The notes under the pieces were generated by a model. That model saw only the letters and a list, made by a program, of their open reading frames with translations, ran no database searches and was not told where the DNA came from. A stretch of 64,000 nucleotides of DNA from Gemmataceae bacterium (GTDB taxonomy: Bacteria; Planctomycetota; Planctomycetia; Gemmatales; Gemmataceae). The position numbers and the translations under genes are program-made. Of this stretch, positions 243 through 5,382 are shown piece after piece (position 1 is the stretch's first letter; each line of letters starts with the position of its first letter). Location of the stretch: assembly GCA_009692065.1 (NCBI GenBank), contig SHZY01000011.1, positions 1-64,000 of the forward strand, in the 5' to 3' direction.

Positions 243-1154
243 ATGCTCGGATGGCTGAAATCGTTGTTCTTCTGGCGCAAGCCTCAACTCGCCACAGCAA
301 CTCCGTCGGCCTTCGCGGCGCTGGAACGAATTATCCTGACCGACGGTGTCGCGCGTACTCTCTTCGAGGACTATCGGGCGCATCGCAAGTCCGTGCGCGG
401 CGACGAGGAGATCGGCTGGGTGCTCATGGGCCTGCGCCAAAGGAGCGAGGCGATTGCCATGGCGGCACTCCCCGCGGGGGCCGAGCGCGATGCCGGCGCC
501 GCCCACATCCGCTTCAATGCCGACGCTCAGGCGCTGGCGAGCCGGATCATTCGCCAAAAAGACAAACGCCTGCAGATCATCGGCGTCGTCCACACTCACC
601 CCGGCAGTCTACGCACACCGAGCGACGGCGACCGCCATGGTGACCGCGACTGGGTCAGCCGACTGCGCGGGGGCGAAGGGGTCTTCGCCATCGGCACTGC
701 GGATGCCCGCGCCGGCGAACCGGCGGGCGCCGGTCTGCAAATCGAGGGGGAGCTGTGTTTTTCCTGGTACGCCCTTGCCGTCGGCGACGAGCGCTATCGC
801 CGCCTGCCGGTGCAGGTGACCCTCGGCGCCGACCTTGCCCTGCCGGCGCGAAGCGTTTGGGAGACACTCGAAGCGTACGCCGAGCCGATCAATCGCTTGT
901 GCCGGCAGTTCAACGGCGTGCTGCTCGACGTGGTCAGCGACGACCCGGAGAACGCACTTTCGGTACAAATCGCGGTGGCGGACTCGGATCAGAACATTCG
1001 TGTATTGTTCAACCAGCACGAGGTGCGGTATTATTGGTCTGACGGCAGCAACGTGAGCGCCATCGATCCGCATGAGCCGCACGTGCTGCGGGCCGTCTAC
1101 CTGATTCTTGCGGAAATGGCGAAGGAAGCGGAACGTTCTCTCGTGGAATCGTGA
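243..1154 (+). CDS. JAB/JAMM-family metallopeptidase (deubiquitinase-like)
   Basis: 303 residues. The JAMM zinc-protease signature is complete: Glu55/56, then VVHTHP with His117 and His119, six residues, then Ser127-x-x-Asp130. In characterised relatives this motif removes ubiquitin-like tags or matures them. The fold runs roughly over residues 25-165. The remaining ~140 residues are an unknown extension with no ubiquitin-like Gly-Gly tail. The start follows an AAGGA ribosome site. It is the first gene of a tight same-strand cluster (60-residue protein, E2-like, E1-like, 395-residue protein), so it probably edits the product of that pathway. The protein family is clear; the substrate is unknown. 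Confidence 0.85.
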   Translation: MLGWLKSLFFWRKPQLATATPSAFAALERIILTDGVARTLFEDYRAHRKSVRGDEEIGWVLMGLRQRSEAIAMAALPAGAERDAGAAHIRFNADAQALASRIIRQKDKRLQIIGVVHTHPGSLRTPSDGDRHGDRDWVSRLRGGEGVFAIGTADARAGEPAGAGLQIEGELCFSWYALAVGDERYRRLPVQVTLGADLALPARSVWETLEAYAEPINRLCRQFNGVLLDVVSDDPENALSVQIAVADSDQNIRVLFNQHEVRYYWSDGSNVSAIDPHEPHVLRAVYLILAEMAKEAERSLVES

Positions 1155-1178
1155 ACCATTCTTGAAGGGAGTAAACCC

Positions 1179-1361
1179 ATGGACTTTCGACCCCTCAATA
1201 CGGAAGAGCGCCAGAAACTGGTGGACGCCCTGCGCGGCAACGCCGAGGACAACCTCGCGATCCTGATGGACCGCCGCGACACGTCGTTCCTCGGCGCCGG
1301 GGAGGGCGTCAGCGACGAGGAAGTTATTTCGGCAATTCAGTCGGTGCCGTGCCATTATTAG
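1179..1361 (+). CDS. 60-residue protein of unknown function in the E1/E2/JAB cluster
   Basis: Starts 24 bases after the JAB stop with a good ribosome site (AAGGGAG). It is charged, probably helical at its N-terminus (MDFRPLNTEERQKLVDALRG), and ends in SVPCHY. It lacks the Gly-Gly end of ubiquitin and the GGE/GGQ end of Pup, and it is shorter than a normal beta-grasp fold (about 70 residues). Its place between the peptidase and the E2 is where a modifier or adaptor gene would be expected, but nothing in the sequence proves either role. I do not recognise the family. Confidence 0.6.
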   Translation: MDFRPLNTEERQKLVDALRGNAEDNLAILMDRRDTSFLGAGEGVSDEEVISAIQSVPCHY

Positions 1362-1362
1362 T

Positions 1363-1408
1363 GGTGAGTGATGAGTGGTTGAAGCCGAATAGTCCCTACC
1401 ACTCAACA
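1363..1408. repeat. GTGAGTG-type tandem/inverted repeat remnant
   Basis: Between the 60-residue ORF and the E2 gene lies TGGTGAGTGATGAGTGGTTG, followed after a short spacer by the opposite-strand form ACCACTCAAC. The same word family (GGTGAGTGG / CCACTCACC) forms a longer inverted array inside the second RND permease gene at 53437-53510. Confidence 0.5.
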
Positions 1409-1425
1409 AGGACGGACGGTGCCCC

Positions 1426-1851
1426 ATGAGCCTACTCGACACCGAAGCCGGTAAACGGCGCATGCTCGCCGTCGAAATTCCGATCCTCGAACGCTACAAC
1501 ACGGGGCGTGCCGACGAATTCAAGATCAAGGTCGTGCAGCACGGCAAGGGCTTGCTGCTGCGTTACCATCTCAAGCCGATGCACAACGTTTACGAGCTGG
1601 AAACGCGTCTGCCGTCGGGCTATCCGACGCTGCCGCCGGAGACGCGCGTGGTGACGCCGCTCGCGTTTTGCCCACATCTTTTGGAAGGGCAAGTGCTGTG
1701 CATGTGGAAGCAGGGCAGCACGCGCGAGACGAGCCGCTGGGACCCGGCCAAGTTCACCTGCGTCTTCGCCGTGCAAGCCGCGTGGCGCTGGCTAGCGTGT
1801 TACGAGGTTTGGCACGCGACCGGCGAATGGCCATTGCCCGAGGCGAAATAG
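1426..1851 (+). CDS. E2-like ubiquitin-conjugating (UBC-fold) protein
   Basis: 141 residues, a single UBC-like domain. The E2 landmarks fall in order: YPTLPP (residues 66-71, equal to the YPxxPP turn), then CPHLLEGQVLCMW (82-94), which matches the H-x(4)-G-x(2)-C block of E2s and makes Cys92 the predicted thioester cysteine. The C-terminal WHATGEWPLPE matches the W-x-x-TG-x-WP tail I associate with prokaryotic E2 families. It would take an activated modifier from the E1-like protein encoded next and pass it to a target. No E3 is apparent. It ends 78 bases before the E1-like gene, a gap filled by a perfect hairpin. Confidence 0.82.
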   Translation: MSLLDTEAGKRRMLAVEIPILERYNTGRADEFKIKVVQHGKGLLLRYHLKPMHNVYELETRLPSGYPTLPPETRVVTPLAFCPHLLEGQVLCMWKQGSTRETSRWDPAKFTCVFAVQAAWRWLACYEVWHATGEWPLPEAK

Positions 1852-1856
1852 TTTCT

Positions 1857-1912
1857 GAGCCCGACGCGCAAGCAAGGTCGTCGTAATCATTCCTTGCTTG
1901 CGCGTCGGGCTC
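1857..1912. repeat. Perfect 21-bp-stem hairpin between the E2-like and E1-like genes
   Basis: The left arm GAGCCCGACGCGCAAGCAAG(G) at 1857-1877 is repeated exactly in reverse complement at 1892-1912, leaving a 14-base loop. No T-run follows. It could attenuate or process the mRNA between the two genes, or it may simply be a dispersed palindrome. A related half-site (GGACGCGCAAGCGACGG) occurs at about 34079-34095. Confidence 0.8.
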
Positions 1913-1928
1913 CGTTGTAGGGGTCACC

Positions 1929-2732
1929 ATGGCCCATTTGTTCCAGGTCGGCGCAGGCTCCGGCGGCATGACCGTTCTGGACATCGTTTGCCGTGATTCG
2001 CGCATCACCCATGTCACGCTCATCGAGCCCGACATCTACAAGCCGCACAATGTGATCCGCCATCAATTCCCGTCTTCCGCCGTGGGCCAGCGCAAGGCCG
2101 ATCTCGCCGCGGTGTGGCTGACGGAGCGCCGGCCTGACCTGCGCGTCGATCTCTTGCCGTGCGACTTACTCGATCCAATCCATGCCGCGGCAATCGACAT
2201 TGCTGTGCAAGCGTGCGACCTCGGCATCTGCGCCGCTGACAACGAGCCGGCGAAGTTTCACTTCGACACGCTGATGCGCCGCTTCAAGAAGCCGTGGACG
2301 CTGGGCGAAGTGCTTTCCGGCGGCATCGGCGGGTTTGTGCACTGGTTTGCGGCGGGCGGTCCGTGCTATGGCTGTGTGGCGAGTTTTCTGCGCCGGTCGG
2401 TCAACGTCGATCAGAGTAAGCCGCCCGATTACTCCGCGCCGGGTGGCCCCGCGCCGGAGACGACGATCCCCGCGAGCCGGGCGTCGATCGAGGTGATCGC
2501 AGCGCTGCACGCGCAGATCACGCTGCAACTGTTGACCCAACCAGCGGATTACGCGCCTGGATTCACGAGCTTGCTGTTGACGCTGGAGAAGGTTCCGGGC
2601 ATCTTCGACGAGGCGTTCCGCACGCACCGCTTTCGCATTCCGCGGGCGCTGGACTGCCTGATTTGCCGCGAGGCCATGTCGCCGGCCGATCTCGATCGCG
2701 CGTTGGACGACGCGCTGGCGCGCCTGCGCTAA
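1929..2732 (+). CDS. ThiF/E1-like adenylating enzyme
   Basis: 267 residues. The Rossmann-type nucleotide motif is GAGSGG (8-13). The other E1/MoeB adenylation residues are recognisable: Asp35 (in IEPD), Arg44 (NVIRHQF), Lys56 (GQRKAD) and Asp104 (AADNEP). Two zinc-type pairs are present, CYGC (146-149) and CLIC (243-246). In E1/MoeB/ThiF proteins a catalytic cysteine usually follows a Thr-Thr around the place where this protein reads PETTIPAS (176-183); here that position has no cysteine. It should adenylate a C-terminal carboxylate and hand it on, probably to the E2-like protein upstream. The N-terminus is short, starting directly at the first beta strand. Confidence 0.82.
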   Translation: MAHLFQVGAGSGGMTVLDIVCRDSRITHVTLIEPDIYKPHNVIRHQFPSSAVGQRKADLAAVWLTERRPDLRVDLLPCDLLDPIHAAAIDIAVQACDLGICAADNEPAKFHFDTLMRRFKKPWTLGEVLSGGIGGFVHWFAAGGPCYGCVASFLRRSVNVDQSKPPDYSAPGGPAPETTIPASRASIEVIAALHAQITLQLLTQPADYAPGFTSLLLTLEKVPGIFDEAFRTHRFRIPRALDCLICREAMSPADLDRALDDALARLR

Positions 2733-2751
2733 CCGATAACATGTACTCATC

Positions 2752-3939
2752 ATGACCTCACCGACAACGGGTAACGCCGGTCTGCACGTTCGCTACGAGA
2801 AGGCCGGGCTGATTCTTGACGCGCTGCCGATCCCGTGGAACGCCGACGCGGTGATTGTCGAGGCGAACGTGAGGCTGCCAGCCAAGGCGGCACGCGCCAA
2901 GCAGGATTTCACGCTGCGTCTCACCGACGATTCGCCCGCCATTGCCGCGGAACTGGTTCACGAAGGAAAGCCGGCCGCGCCGTTGCGCGTGTTCTTCCGC
3001 ACGGGCGTGCCGGCGCAGACGGTGGCGGCGGAGGTGTGCTGGCGCGAGCATGTCCTGGGGCGAGTTGACGTACCGATCCTGACGCGAGCCGAGTTTCTAG
3101 CCGGCGTGACCATCGACATGCCGACGCTGCACGCCGCGCTCGGGCAGCAGGCGGCGCCGTGCCGGGCGTTTGTCGGCACGCAAGTCAAGACGGTGCTTGC
3201 CTCAGCGATCGTGCGGAGCGCCGGGCCGCTGGCGCCGGCATTCGATCTGGATTTGCGCGTGGAGGTGCATCGTGAGAATGGCCAGCTCGTCGGCGCCATC
3301 TCGGTGCCGTGGACCAGCGACCAGCTCCGCGCCCGCCAAACGCTGGTGACGCTGCCGTTGCCGAAGCTGCGCTGGCTTGGCGTCTATCAAGTCTCCTGGC
3401 ATCTCGGCACGCGCTGCCTCCATGCCCACACGGTGCGGGCCGTGGCGAAGAAGGCGTTTCAGCGCTCGCTGCGCATCTGCGGCACGCGTTTCGTTTTGCA
3501 CAAGACGATCGGCACGACCGAAATCGTGCGCGCCCTGCCGAGGCGCGACGGCGAGTTGCTGCTGGAGGGAATCGAGCGCGTGTCGCCGTGCTTTCTGGTA
3601 TGCACGAGCGAGGTGGGGATGGCCGGGCTCGCCTCCTTCACGCTGCGGGCGCTCGTTGGCGAGGTGCTCGGCACGCTGGCGATCAACGATGACATCTTGG
3701 TGACCGATGGGCCGACGCCGATCGTGCTCGGTTCGATGGCGGCGGGAGAGTTGCCGCGGGTGCAGCAGTTCTCGCTGGCCTCTGGCGACCGGATCCTGGG
3801 CAACCTGACGCTGCTGCCGGCGCCAGTGCCGCAGTTCACCGCCGAAGGGGGCTTCGCGCCGCTCGATGATTTCCTGTGGTCGCCGGCGGCCGACGAACAG
3901 CTTAAAGATCGGCTTGGGAAATTGCTTGACGGGGACTGA
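2752..3939 (+). CDS. 395-residue protein of unknown function, last gene of the E1/E2/JAB cluster
   Basis: Starts 19 bases after the E1-like stop on the same strand, so it is probably co-transcribed. No signal peptide and no membrane segment. The sequence is rich in alternating hydrophobic residues and Pro/Gly, suggesting several beta-sandwich domains. Cysteines are scattered and form no zinc motif. I do not recognise a family and found no ubiquitin-like tail. Position suggests a partner of the conjugation enzymes, perhaps target, scaffold or sensor, but this is inference only. Confidence 0.65.
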   Translation: MTSPTTGNAGLHVRYEKAGLILDALPIPWNADAVIVEANVRLPAKAARAKQDFTLRLTDDSPAIAAELVHEGKPAAPLRVFFRTGVPAQTVAAEVCWREHVLGRVDVPILTRAEFLAGVTIDMPTLHAALGQQAAPCRAFVGTQVKTVLASAIVRSAGPLAPAFDLDLRVEVHRENGQLVGAISVPWTSDQLRARQTLVTLPLPKLRWLGVYQVSWHLGTRCLHAHTVRAVAKKAFQRSLRICGTRFVLHKTIGTTEIVRALPRRDGELLLEGIERVSPCFLVCTSEVGMAGLASFTLRALVGEVLGTLAINDDILVTDGPTPIVLGSMAAGELPRVQQFSLASGDRILGNLTLLPAPVPQFTAEGGFAPLDDFLWSPAADEQLKDRLGKLLDGD

Positions 3940-4001: not shown

Positions 4002-4017
4002 GGGAGAGGATATTTTG

Positions 4018-5382
4018 ATGCGGCTAGATCGGCGCGGATTCTTCCAGTTCGGCGGTGTCTCGCTGCTCTCGGCGGGGCTCCTCAACGTGCTGGCCGCGCG
4101 CGCGGCCGGGCAGGTCACGCAGCGCCCGCGCGCCAAGGCGTGCATCCTCTTGTTCCAGGTCGGCGGGCCGTACCAGGCGGAGACGTTCGATCCCAAACCG
4201 GATGCCTCTCCGGAAATCCGCGGCATCTTCCGCACCATCTCGACGCGCGTGCCCGGCCTGCGTATGACCGACGCCCTGCCCCGCGTTGCCGAGCATGCCG
4301 ACAAGATCGCGATCCTGCGCGCCGTCAACCACAACATCCGCTGCCATAATCCGGCGATCTATTGCAGCATCGTTGGCCGCGAGGCGACCGATCCGATGGC
4401 GATCTCCAACCGCACCGCCGCGCGGCGTACCGATCATCCGCATTTCGCGTCGGTCGTCGCTCGCTTGCGTCCGCCGCAAACATCGATGCCGTTCCACGTC
4501 ATCATTCCGAACACCACGAACAACGGGCCGTCGAAATCGCCGGGCCTCATGGGGGGCTATCTGGGGGCGGCGTACGATCCGTTTGTACTGGGCGCCGATC
4601 CGAGCGAAGAGGATTTTCGCGTCGAGAGCGTCGTCTTGCCGGAGGAGGTCAACGCCCGCCGTTTCGAATCGCGCCAGTCGCTGCTCCAGCGTTTCGATCA
4701 GCAGCAGGGCATGCTGGATCGCGGCACTCCTGTCGAATCGATGAACACGCACTATCAGCGCGCCTTCAACATGCTGACGGCGCCTGCTTCGCGCCAGGCA
4801 TTCGACCTGAGCAAGGAGCCCGACCGCGTCCGCGATCGCTATGGCCGACACTTGCAAGGGCAGAGCACGCTGCTGGCGCGCCGCCTCGTCGAGGCCGGGG
4901 TGCCGTTTGTTTCGGTGTTCTCGCACGTCGATGTCGATCGCGGCAGCTGGGATACGCATCAGAACCATGTCGCCCGCTCGCATCAACTGCTGCCGCCGGC
5001 CGACCAGTCCTTCAGTGCCCTCCTGGAAGATCTGCACACGCGCGGCATGCTCGACGAGACGCTGGTGATCTGGATGGGCGAGTTTGGCCGCACGCCGAGG
5101 ATGGGGGTCAATTTCTCGAACAACACCAACAACATCGGCGGCCGCGATCACTGGTGCAATTGCTACTCGGTGGTGCTGGCCGGCGGCGGCGTGCGCGGAG
5201 GCAACGTGGTCGGCGCGTCGGACCAGTTCGCCGCCTTTCCGCGCGAACGCGCCGTCCACGTCAGCGAATTGGCCGCCACCATCTTTCACATCATGGGGAT
5301 CGACCCTCGCGCCCAGCTCTACGACATCCAGGGGCAGTTCCGCACGATTTGCGACGGCAATCCGGTGATGGAAGTGTTTTGA
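4018..5382 (+). CDS. DUF1501 family protein with Tat signal
   Basis: 454 residues from the ATG at 4018, preceded by GGGGAGAGGA. The in-frame TTG one codon earlier is a less likely start. The N-terminus holds a twin-arginine motif (LDRRGFFQFGG) followed by a hydrophobic stretch and Ala-rich cleavage region, so export in folded form is predicted. The body has the DUF1501 features I know from planctomycetes: GGPYQAETFDPKP near the start, WDTHQNH in the middle and a GEFGRTPRMG block late on. The family is related in fold to sulfatases/alkaline phosphatases. Its function is unproven; it commonly accompanies DUF1549/DUF1553 proteins, but here it stands alone. Confidence 0.88.
   Translation: MRLDRRGFFQFGGVSLLSAGLLNVLAARAAGQVTQRPRAKACILLFQVGGPYQAETFDPKPDASPEIRGIFRTISTRVPGLRMTDALPRVAEHADKIAILRAVNHNIRCHNPAIYCSIVGREATDPMAISNRTAARRTDHPHFASVVARLRPPQTSMPFHVIIPNTTNNGPSKSPGLMGGYLGAAYDPFVLGADPSEEDFRVESVVLPEEVNARRFESRQSLLQRFDQQQGMLDRGTPVESMNTHYQRAFNMLTAPASRQAFDLSKEPDRVRDRYGRHLQGQSTLLARRLVEAGVPFVSVFSHVDVDRGSWDTHQNHVARSHQLLPPADQSFSALLEDLHTRGMLDETLVIWMGEFGRTPRMGVNFSNNTNNIGGRDHWCNCYSVVLAGGGVRGGNVVGASDQFAAFPRERAVHVSELAATIFHIMGIDPRAQLYDIQGQFRTICDGNPVMEVF

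Follow-up and report, generated by a model that had tools for sequence, protein, structure and literature searches.

A five-gene E1-E2-JAB cluster of Gemmatales and a 60-residue protein as its candidate modifier

Gene content of the cluster

The window, a 64,000-nucleotide stretch of contig 42 in the draft genome of a Gemmataceae bacterium (order Gemmatales), starts with a cluster of five genes on the forward strand. In order, they encode a JAB/JAMM metalloprotease, a 60-residue protein, an E2-like conjugating enzyme, an E1-like adenylyltransferase, and a 395-residue protein. The original prediction, made from the nucleotide sequence, had placed five genes on one strand, named the catalytic residues of JAB, E2, and E1, and taken the cluster for a ubiquitin-like conjugation set with no visible modifier. 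Open reading frames (ORFs), family scans, and alignments bore this out, with no recognizable beta-grasp modifier, and the five ORFs lie exactly where it had placed them. In this study, we describe the conservation and occurrence of the cluster and propose the 60-residue protein as its modifier.

The E2-like protein (141 residues; positions 1426-1851) matched the PADLOC E2 models at 1.7e-9 and, weakly, Prok-E2_B and UQ_con of Pfam. Its predicted catalytic cysteine, C92 (codon at 1699-1701), was invariant in 26 sequences, as were H84, C125, and the YP..P motif. By its sequence, the protein is a member of the E2 family with a putative active-site cysteine. The E1-like protein (267 residues; 1929-2732) matched ThiF at 3.5e-13 and the PADLOC E1-E2 model at 1.4e-17, and its best solved relatives were UBA5 and MoeB. 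A nucleotide-binding glycine motif of the form GxGxxG (GAGSGG; 1950-1967), the ATP-site residues D35, R44, K56, and D104, and two CxxC pairs (C146/C149 and C243/C246) were invariant in 22 sequences, the pattern of a predicted ThiF-family adenylyltransferase. The CxxC pairs bound a region (2364-2666) assigned as a probable structural zinc site. No cysteine was conserved between the pairs in the 22 sequences; thus, the crossover loop lacks the residue that defines a canonical thioester-forming E1.

The JAB protein (303 residues; 243-1154), which has a conserved C-terminal extension, matched Prok-JAB at 1.1e-10. Among 22 homologs, E56, H117, H119, and D130 were invariant and S127 was nearly so. 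These residues make up a predicted JAMM isopeptidase motif (E plus HxH-x7-S-x2-D; the H117-D130 part at 591-632), and the protein is a candidate processing or deconjugating peptidase.

The remaining two ORFs had no family in the Pfam and PADLOC scans. For the 60-residue ORF (1179-1361), the only NCBIfam match was far under the cut-off, and PDB and Pfam searches with the protein returned no credible relative. In 29 sequences of this ORF, the pairwise differences at codon positions 1, 2, and 3 were 0.22, 0.14, and 0.51, and single changes were synonymous in 7922 cases versus non-synonymous in 2770. It is a real coding gene constrained by purifying selection, and two helices are predicted for its product, the rest being of low confidence. 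The 395-residue protein (2752-3939) was modeled by AlphaFold2 as immunoglobulin (Ig)-like beta-sandwich domains followed by a C-terminal helix, with a predicted local distance difference test (pLDDT) score of 88. Foldseek and VIA-align matched it to FN3/Ig, complement MG, and Wzt carbohydrate-binding sandwiches with middling scores, which suggest no more than a role as a scaffold or in binding. The C-terminus of this protein varies in sequence and length between homologs. The confident sandwich model and the variable C-terminus led us to reject the earlier suggestion that a ubiquitin-like modifier is hidden in the 395-residue protein.

Occurrence and conservation in Gemmatales and phages

A total of 102 Gemmatales genomes were searched with profiles of the cluster proteins. 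The 60-residue protein and the orthologs of E2 and E1 occurred in an identical set of 73 genomes, 72% of the sample, spanning two families. The other 29 genomes had none of the three at the ortholog level, and some genera showed both states. One extra, weak E2 match fell outside the 73 genomes and adjoined a gene of the type found in cyclic oligonucleotide-based antiphage signaling systems (CBASS). The 395-residue protein was present in 72 of the 73; in the exception, the E1 gene itself runs off the contig end. JAB was found in 52 genomes, all inside the 73, and was missing from 21; it is optional to the system. Part of the absences may be assembly gaps. In a genome scored as system-negative (G488), a fragment of the 395-residue protein gene ends a 3.8-kb contig (L172:3203-3778), which may be such a gap.

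In every one of the 73 genomes, the gene of the 60-residue protein adjoined the E2 gene. About seven genomes (G475, G016, G029, G476, G477, G015, and G042) had the E1 gene and the gene of the 395-residue protein at another place, yet side by side; in the complete chromosome of Limnoglobus roseus (G475), the E2 gene lies at 4.99 Mb and the E1 gene at 9.38 Mb. The cluster is thus built of two conserved pairs, the 60-residue protein with E2 and E1 with the 395-residue protein. The expectation that all five genes are conserved together held for each pair; it failed for JAB and for the linkage between the pairs.

Named homologous clusters were mostly from Gemmatales, including metagenome-assembled genomes of Gemmataceae and the cultured species L. 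roseus and Zavarzinella formosa, with a few records labeled otherwise. Flanking genes were not common between genera, and beyond the five genes none occurred in more than 7 of 29 loci. The cluster is kept while its flanks differ; therefore, selection maintains the gene set rather than the surrounding region. In the E2 tree, the window's genus grouped as a single clade, consistent with genes that were mostly inherited vertically and repeatedly lost together; with distant outgroups, this tree was too long-branched for rooting. On this evidence, the cluster looks chromosomal and mostly vertically inherited. In a phylum sample of 343 genomes, the only strong E2 match was in the genome of the window itself, and five further genomes gave weak matches. 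The profile of the 60-residue protein had no match above noise in the phylum outside Gemmatales. In the orders of genomes G136 and G187, the E1 profile found only matches far weaker than those of the two starting genomes, and these are probably ordinary ThiF/MoeB proteins. A plasmid search with E2 and the 60-residue protein yielded one weak E2 match, and the record that holds it carries CBASS gene annotations.

Mean column identity was 80% for the 60-residue protein and 82% for E2, and 49% for both JAB and the 395-residue protein. The C-terminal block of the 60-residue protein (SVPCHY in the window; 1341-1358) was present as VPxHY in 73/73 Gemmatales copies, with x being C in 58, V in 9, S in 5, and T in 1. 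Sixty-one copies end exactly at the tyrosine, and 12 carry one to six residues beyond it (A, G, GR, KL, AG, AGI, AGV, or AVVSGQ after HY). The 12 tailed copies were all from JAB-positive genomes, and none of the 21 JAB-negative genomes had one (Fisher p=0.015, uncorrected for phylogeny); by eye, about seven independent events gave rise to the tails. Confinement of the tails to JAB-positive genomes is what would be expected of a modifier precursor and the protease that processes it, although the statistics are weak.

The 60-residue protein was also encoded on three IMG/VR contigs (33, 47, and 235 kb) and in an uncultured phage record, LR756511.1 (595 kb). The viral copies are at L180:20001-20180 (LR756511.1), L176:5001-5180, L177:4983-5198, and L178:5001-5186. 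The viral status of these contigs rests on the source collections and on a few neighboring genes; tail-fibre, ThyX, homing-endonuclease, Mom-like, and GroES genes were seen nearby. Profile searches of the stretches around the copies found no E1, E2, JAB, or 395-residue protein gene, and the whole phage collection gave no E1 or E2 match. The tail is the best-kept part of these copies: SVPxHY was present, and the C-terminal 13 residues were retained at 13/13 in two copies and 11/13 in the other two. Two viral copies have diverged in the N-terminal part while keeping EVINAIKSVPCHY letter for letter. Stand-alone copies in phages suggest that phages interact with the 60-residue protein. Near the copy in LR756511, a TIGR02996-like domain (named for G. 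obscuriglobus) was noted under the cut-off. A further IMG/VR contig, with JAB, the 60-residue protein, E2, and E1 (L175/L179), is probably host DNA.

Distant relatives and known systems

The same gene order, with JAB, a small ORF, E2, E1, and a further long ORF, was seen in L167, which comes from a planctomycete of a different family. The small ORF scored 10.5 bits against the profile of the 60-residue protein (reached by 0/500 shuffles) and ends in HYAGR. The ORF preceding E2 in L169 terminates in RHGG and scored 5.6 bits; this was matched by 0/1000 shuffles once the profile included L167 and by 35/500 without L167. These endings suggest that a glycine near the C-terminus may be ancestral. 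In L168 and on a Mesorhizobium plasmid, a different protein of 57-60 residues precedes E2 and ends in GGEYYIEG and GGEY, respectively. Homology of the Gemmatales 60-residue protein to these small proteins was rejected, as the score was not significant. The E2 active-site cysteine aligned with a cysteine of the distant relatives.

The Mesorhizobium sp. AR10 plasmid operon (L214:5001-9907) encodes the 57-residue protein, E2, a fusion of Phd/YefM and an E2-like domain, ThiF, a JAB-like protein, an MBL-like protein (called by reading its sequence), and a patatin-like phospholipase, and it looks like a mobile cousin of the Gemmatales cluster. A second E2-like protein lies behind an N-terminal Phd/YefM-like domain at L168:8367-8873 and L214:5573-6103. 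Its active-site segment reads GALCIFG in L168, and the Mesorhizobium copy has serine in place of the cysteine (GSLSIFG), a possible pseudo-E2. At L170:8041-8754 and L171:3701-4354, E2 has an N-terminal extension with an I-T-x-x-G-E-L motif and adjoins a fusion of JAB and E1. A neighboring small ORF was judged by eye to be Cas2-like.

Among known systems, 6A-MBL/6a-6e, type II CBASS, and Bil come closest, and for each of them the cluster lacks one or more of the defining features that were tested. The E2-E1-JAB operon classes 6a-6e were described by Iyer, Burroughs and Aravind (2006; PMC1779556). As in these, E2, ThiF-type E1, and JAB genes stand together, and among NCBIfam models NF058523 (6A-MBL cap2_3) matched the E1 best, at 3.3e-10, far under the cut-off. 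Unlike 6A-MBL, the cluster has three separate proteins instead of one E2-E1-JAB fusion, has no conserved MBL gene at the locus, and carries the conserved 60-residue protein and the Ig-like 395-residue protein. The likeness to type II CBASS lies in the E2, in which the cysteine stands in a PHLxxGxLCL context with a WLACYEVW-like helix as in the CBASS E2s of L092 and L173, and in the JAB, which is of the Cap3 superfamily. In contrast to type II CBASS, no CD-NTase or effector gene was conserved among the 29 loci, none of the five cluster genes is a CD-NTase, E1 and E2 are separate proteins, and the candidate modifier ends in tyrosine instead of glycine or alanine. Bil (BilABCD) also has E1, E2, JAB, and modifier as separate genes. 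However, BilA is a two-domain beta-grasp ubiquitin-like protein matured to a C-terminal glycine, and BilD has a catalytic cysteine domain (PMC11354881). Neither a two-domain ubiquitin-like protein nor a BilD-type cysteine domain was seen among the five genes, and the BilC model matched the cluster JAB at only 0.0072.

A modifier of similar size exists in bacteria. Pup is a short modifier of about 60 residues, probably poorly structured, and is ligated by PafA, a glutamine-synthetase-like ligase. The 60-residue protein resembles Pup/UBact in length; unlike them, it is accompanied by E1, E2, and JAB. The cluster is best filed as a new form of bacterial ubiquitin-like conjugation. No paper on this cluster came up in a literature search that did not cover bioRxiv preprints and many subscription papers. 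The model libraries and papers searched also yielded no models or descriptions of Bub operons.

Proposed conjugation of the 60-residue protein and its alternatives

From these comparisons, we consider it more likely than not that the E1-E2 set conjugates the 60-residue protein as a modifier and forms a dedicated ubiquitin-like pathway of Gemmatales. The all-or-none occurrence of the 60-residue protein, E2, and E1, its place next to E2, and its conserved C-terminal block make it the best of the modifiers that had been proposed. The ThiF-type E1 would bind the 60-residue protein and adenylate its C-terminal carboxylate. As the crossover loop of E1 has no cysteine, the simplest scheme is that the acyl group is probably handed straight from the adenylate to C92 of E2, which would then join the 60-residue protein to targets, either proteins or other amines. 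JAB probably trims the extensions after HY in some lineages, removes the tag, or does both. The Ig-like 395-residue protein, the constant companion of E1, probably serves as a scaffold or as a subunit that binds targets. The phage copies with the same C-terminal block may be decoys or users of the host machinery.

Several points weigh against this proposal. The main objection is the C-terminal tyrosine, which would not be expected on a protein that E1 activates: with Cap2 of CBASS, conjugation requires a C-terminal glycine or alanine and is abolished by bulkier residues (PMC10097602). The native or processed C-terminal glycine of beta-grasp modifiers is missing from most copies, although glycine is present in some tails (AG, G, GR, AGI, and AGV) and in the L167 and L169 relatives. 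The AlphaFold2 model of the 60-residue protein, of low confidence (pLDDT 64; predicted template modeling score 0.33), contains helices 8-23 and 46-54 only and nothing beta-grasp-like. In the alignment of 27 sequences, the N-terminal MDFRP was as invariant as the C-terminus. Finally, E2 in L170 and L171 carries, fused to its N-terminus, a segment with weak similarity to the small proteins of L168 and Mesorhizobium. Such a fusion would fit an adaptor of E2 and not a free tag, and it is the best argument for an adaptor. The more specific claim, a new class of tag that is short, lacks the ubiquitin fold, ends in VPxHY, is charged by E1/E2, is cut by JAB, and has phage-encoded copies, is for us nearly balanced and leans slightly to the negative.

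The E2 and E1 share their superfamilies with proteins of CBASS and 6A-MBL, and the original prediction had pointed to antiviral defense by way of Bil, Bub, and CBASS. The cluster could be an anti-phage system of this kind that is chromosomal in Gemmatales, an explanation that concerns purpose and is compatible with a modifier role. The phage copies of the 60-residue protein and the patatin-like phospholipase gene next to the Mesorhizobium cousin favor it. However, the spread over most of the sampled order and two families, the genus-level clade in the E2 tree, the lack of a conserved effector gene in the 29 loci, and the lack of a strong E2 match elsewhere in the phylum sample weigh against this part of the prediction. 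A defense function is possible, is not required by the data, and seems to us rather unlikely.

The 60-residue protein may instead be a non-covalent partner of E2/E1, such as an allosteric activator or adaptor, with the true modifier being another, possibly ThiS/MoaD-like, protein encoded elsewhere. Its invariable place beside E2, the fused segment in L170 and L171, and a C-terminal tyrosine unlike the end of known modifiers would all suit a partner. On the other side, the conserved end, the tails limited to JAB-positive genomes, and the phage copies, in which the end is the best-kept part, are easier to explain if the C-terminus is conjugated, and the 29 loci offer no other conserved gene; we consider a partner role unlikely.

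A pathway for ribosomally synthesized and post-translationally modified peptides, in which E1 would adenylate the C-terminus of the 60-residue protein as MccB does with microcin C7 and E2 and JAB would complete or cut the product, agrees with the ThiF/MccB-family E1, its cysteine-free crossover loop, and a short peptide-like substrate with a conserved end, but it is very unlikely because the substrate is conserved along its entire length, no export or immunity gene is conserved in the 29 loci, and we know of no MccB pathway with a catalytic-type E2 (invariant cysteine) or a JAB isopeptidase.

In the current understanding, known E1/E2 pathways act on beta-grasp proteins, or on the cGAS-like enzyme in CBASS, which they activate through a C-terminal glycine or alanine. 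If conjugation of the 60-residue protein is correct, a short tag that ends in tyrosine, occurs order-wide, and is copied by phages would widen the range of E1/E2 conjugation substrates. Gemmatales are cell-biologically complex bacteria, and the cluster would offer a compact genetic system for ubiquitin chemistry outside defense.

Downstream of the cluster, positions 4015-5382 of the window hold a 455-residue ORF resembling the DUF1501 family, in a region common to only 3 of the 29 loci.

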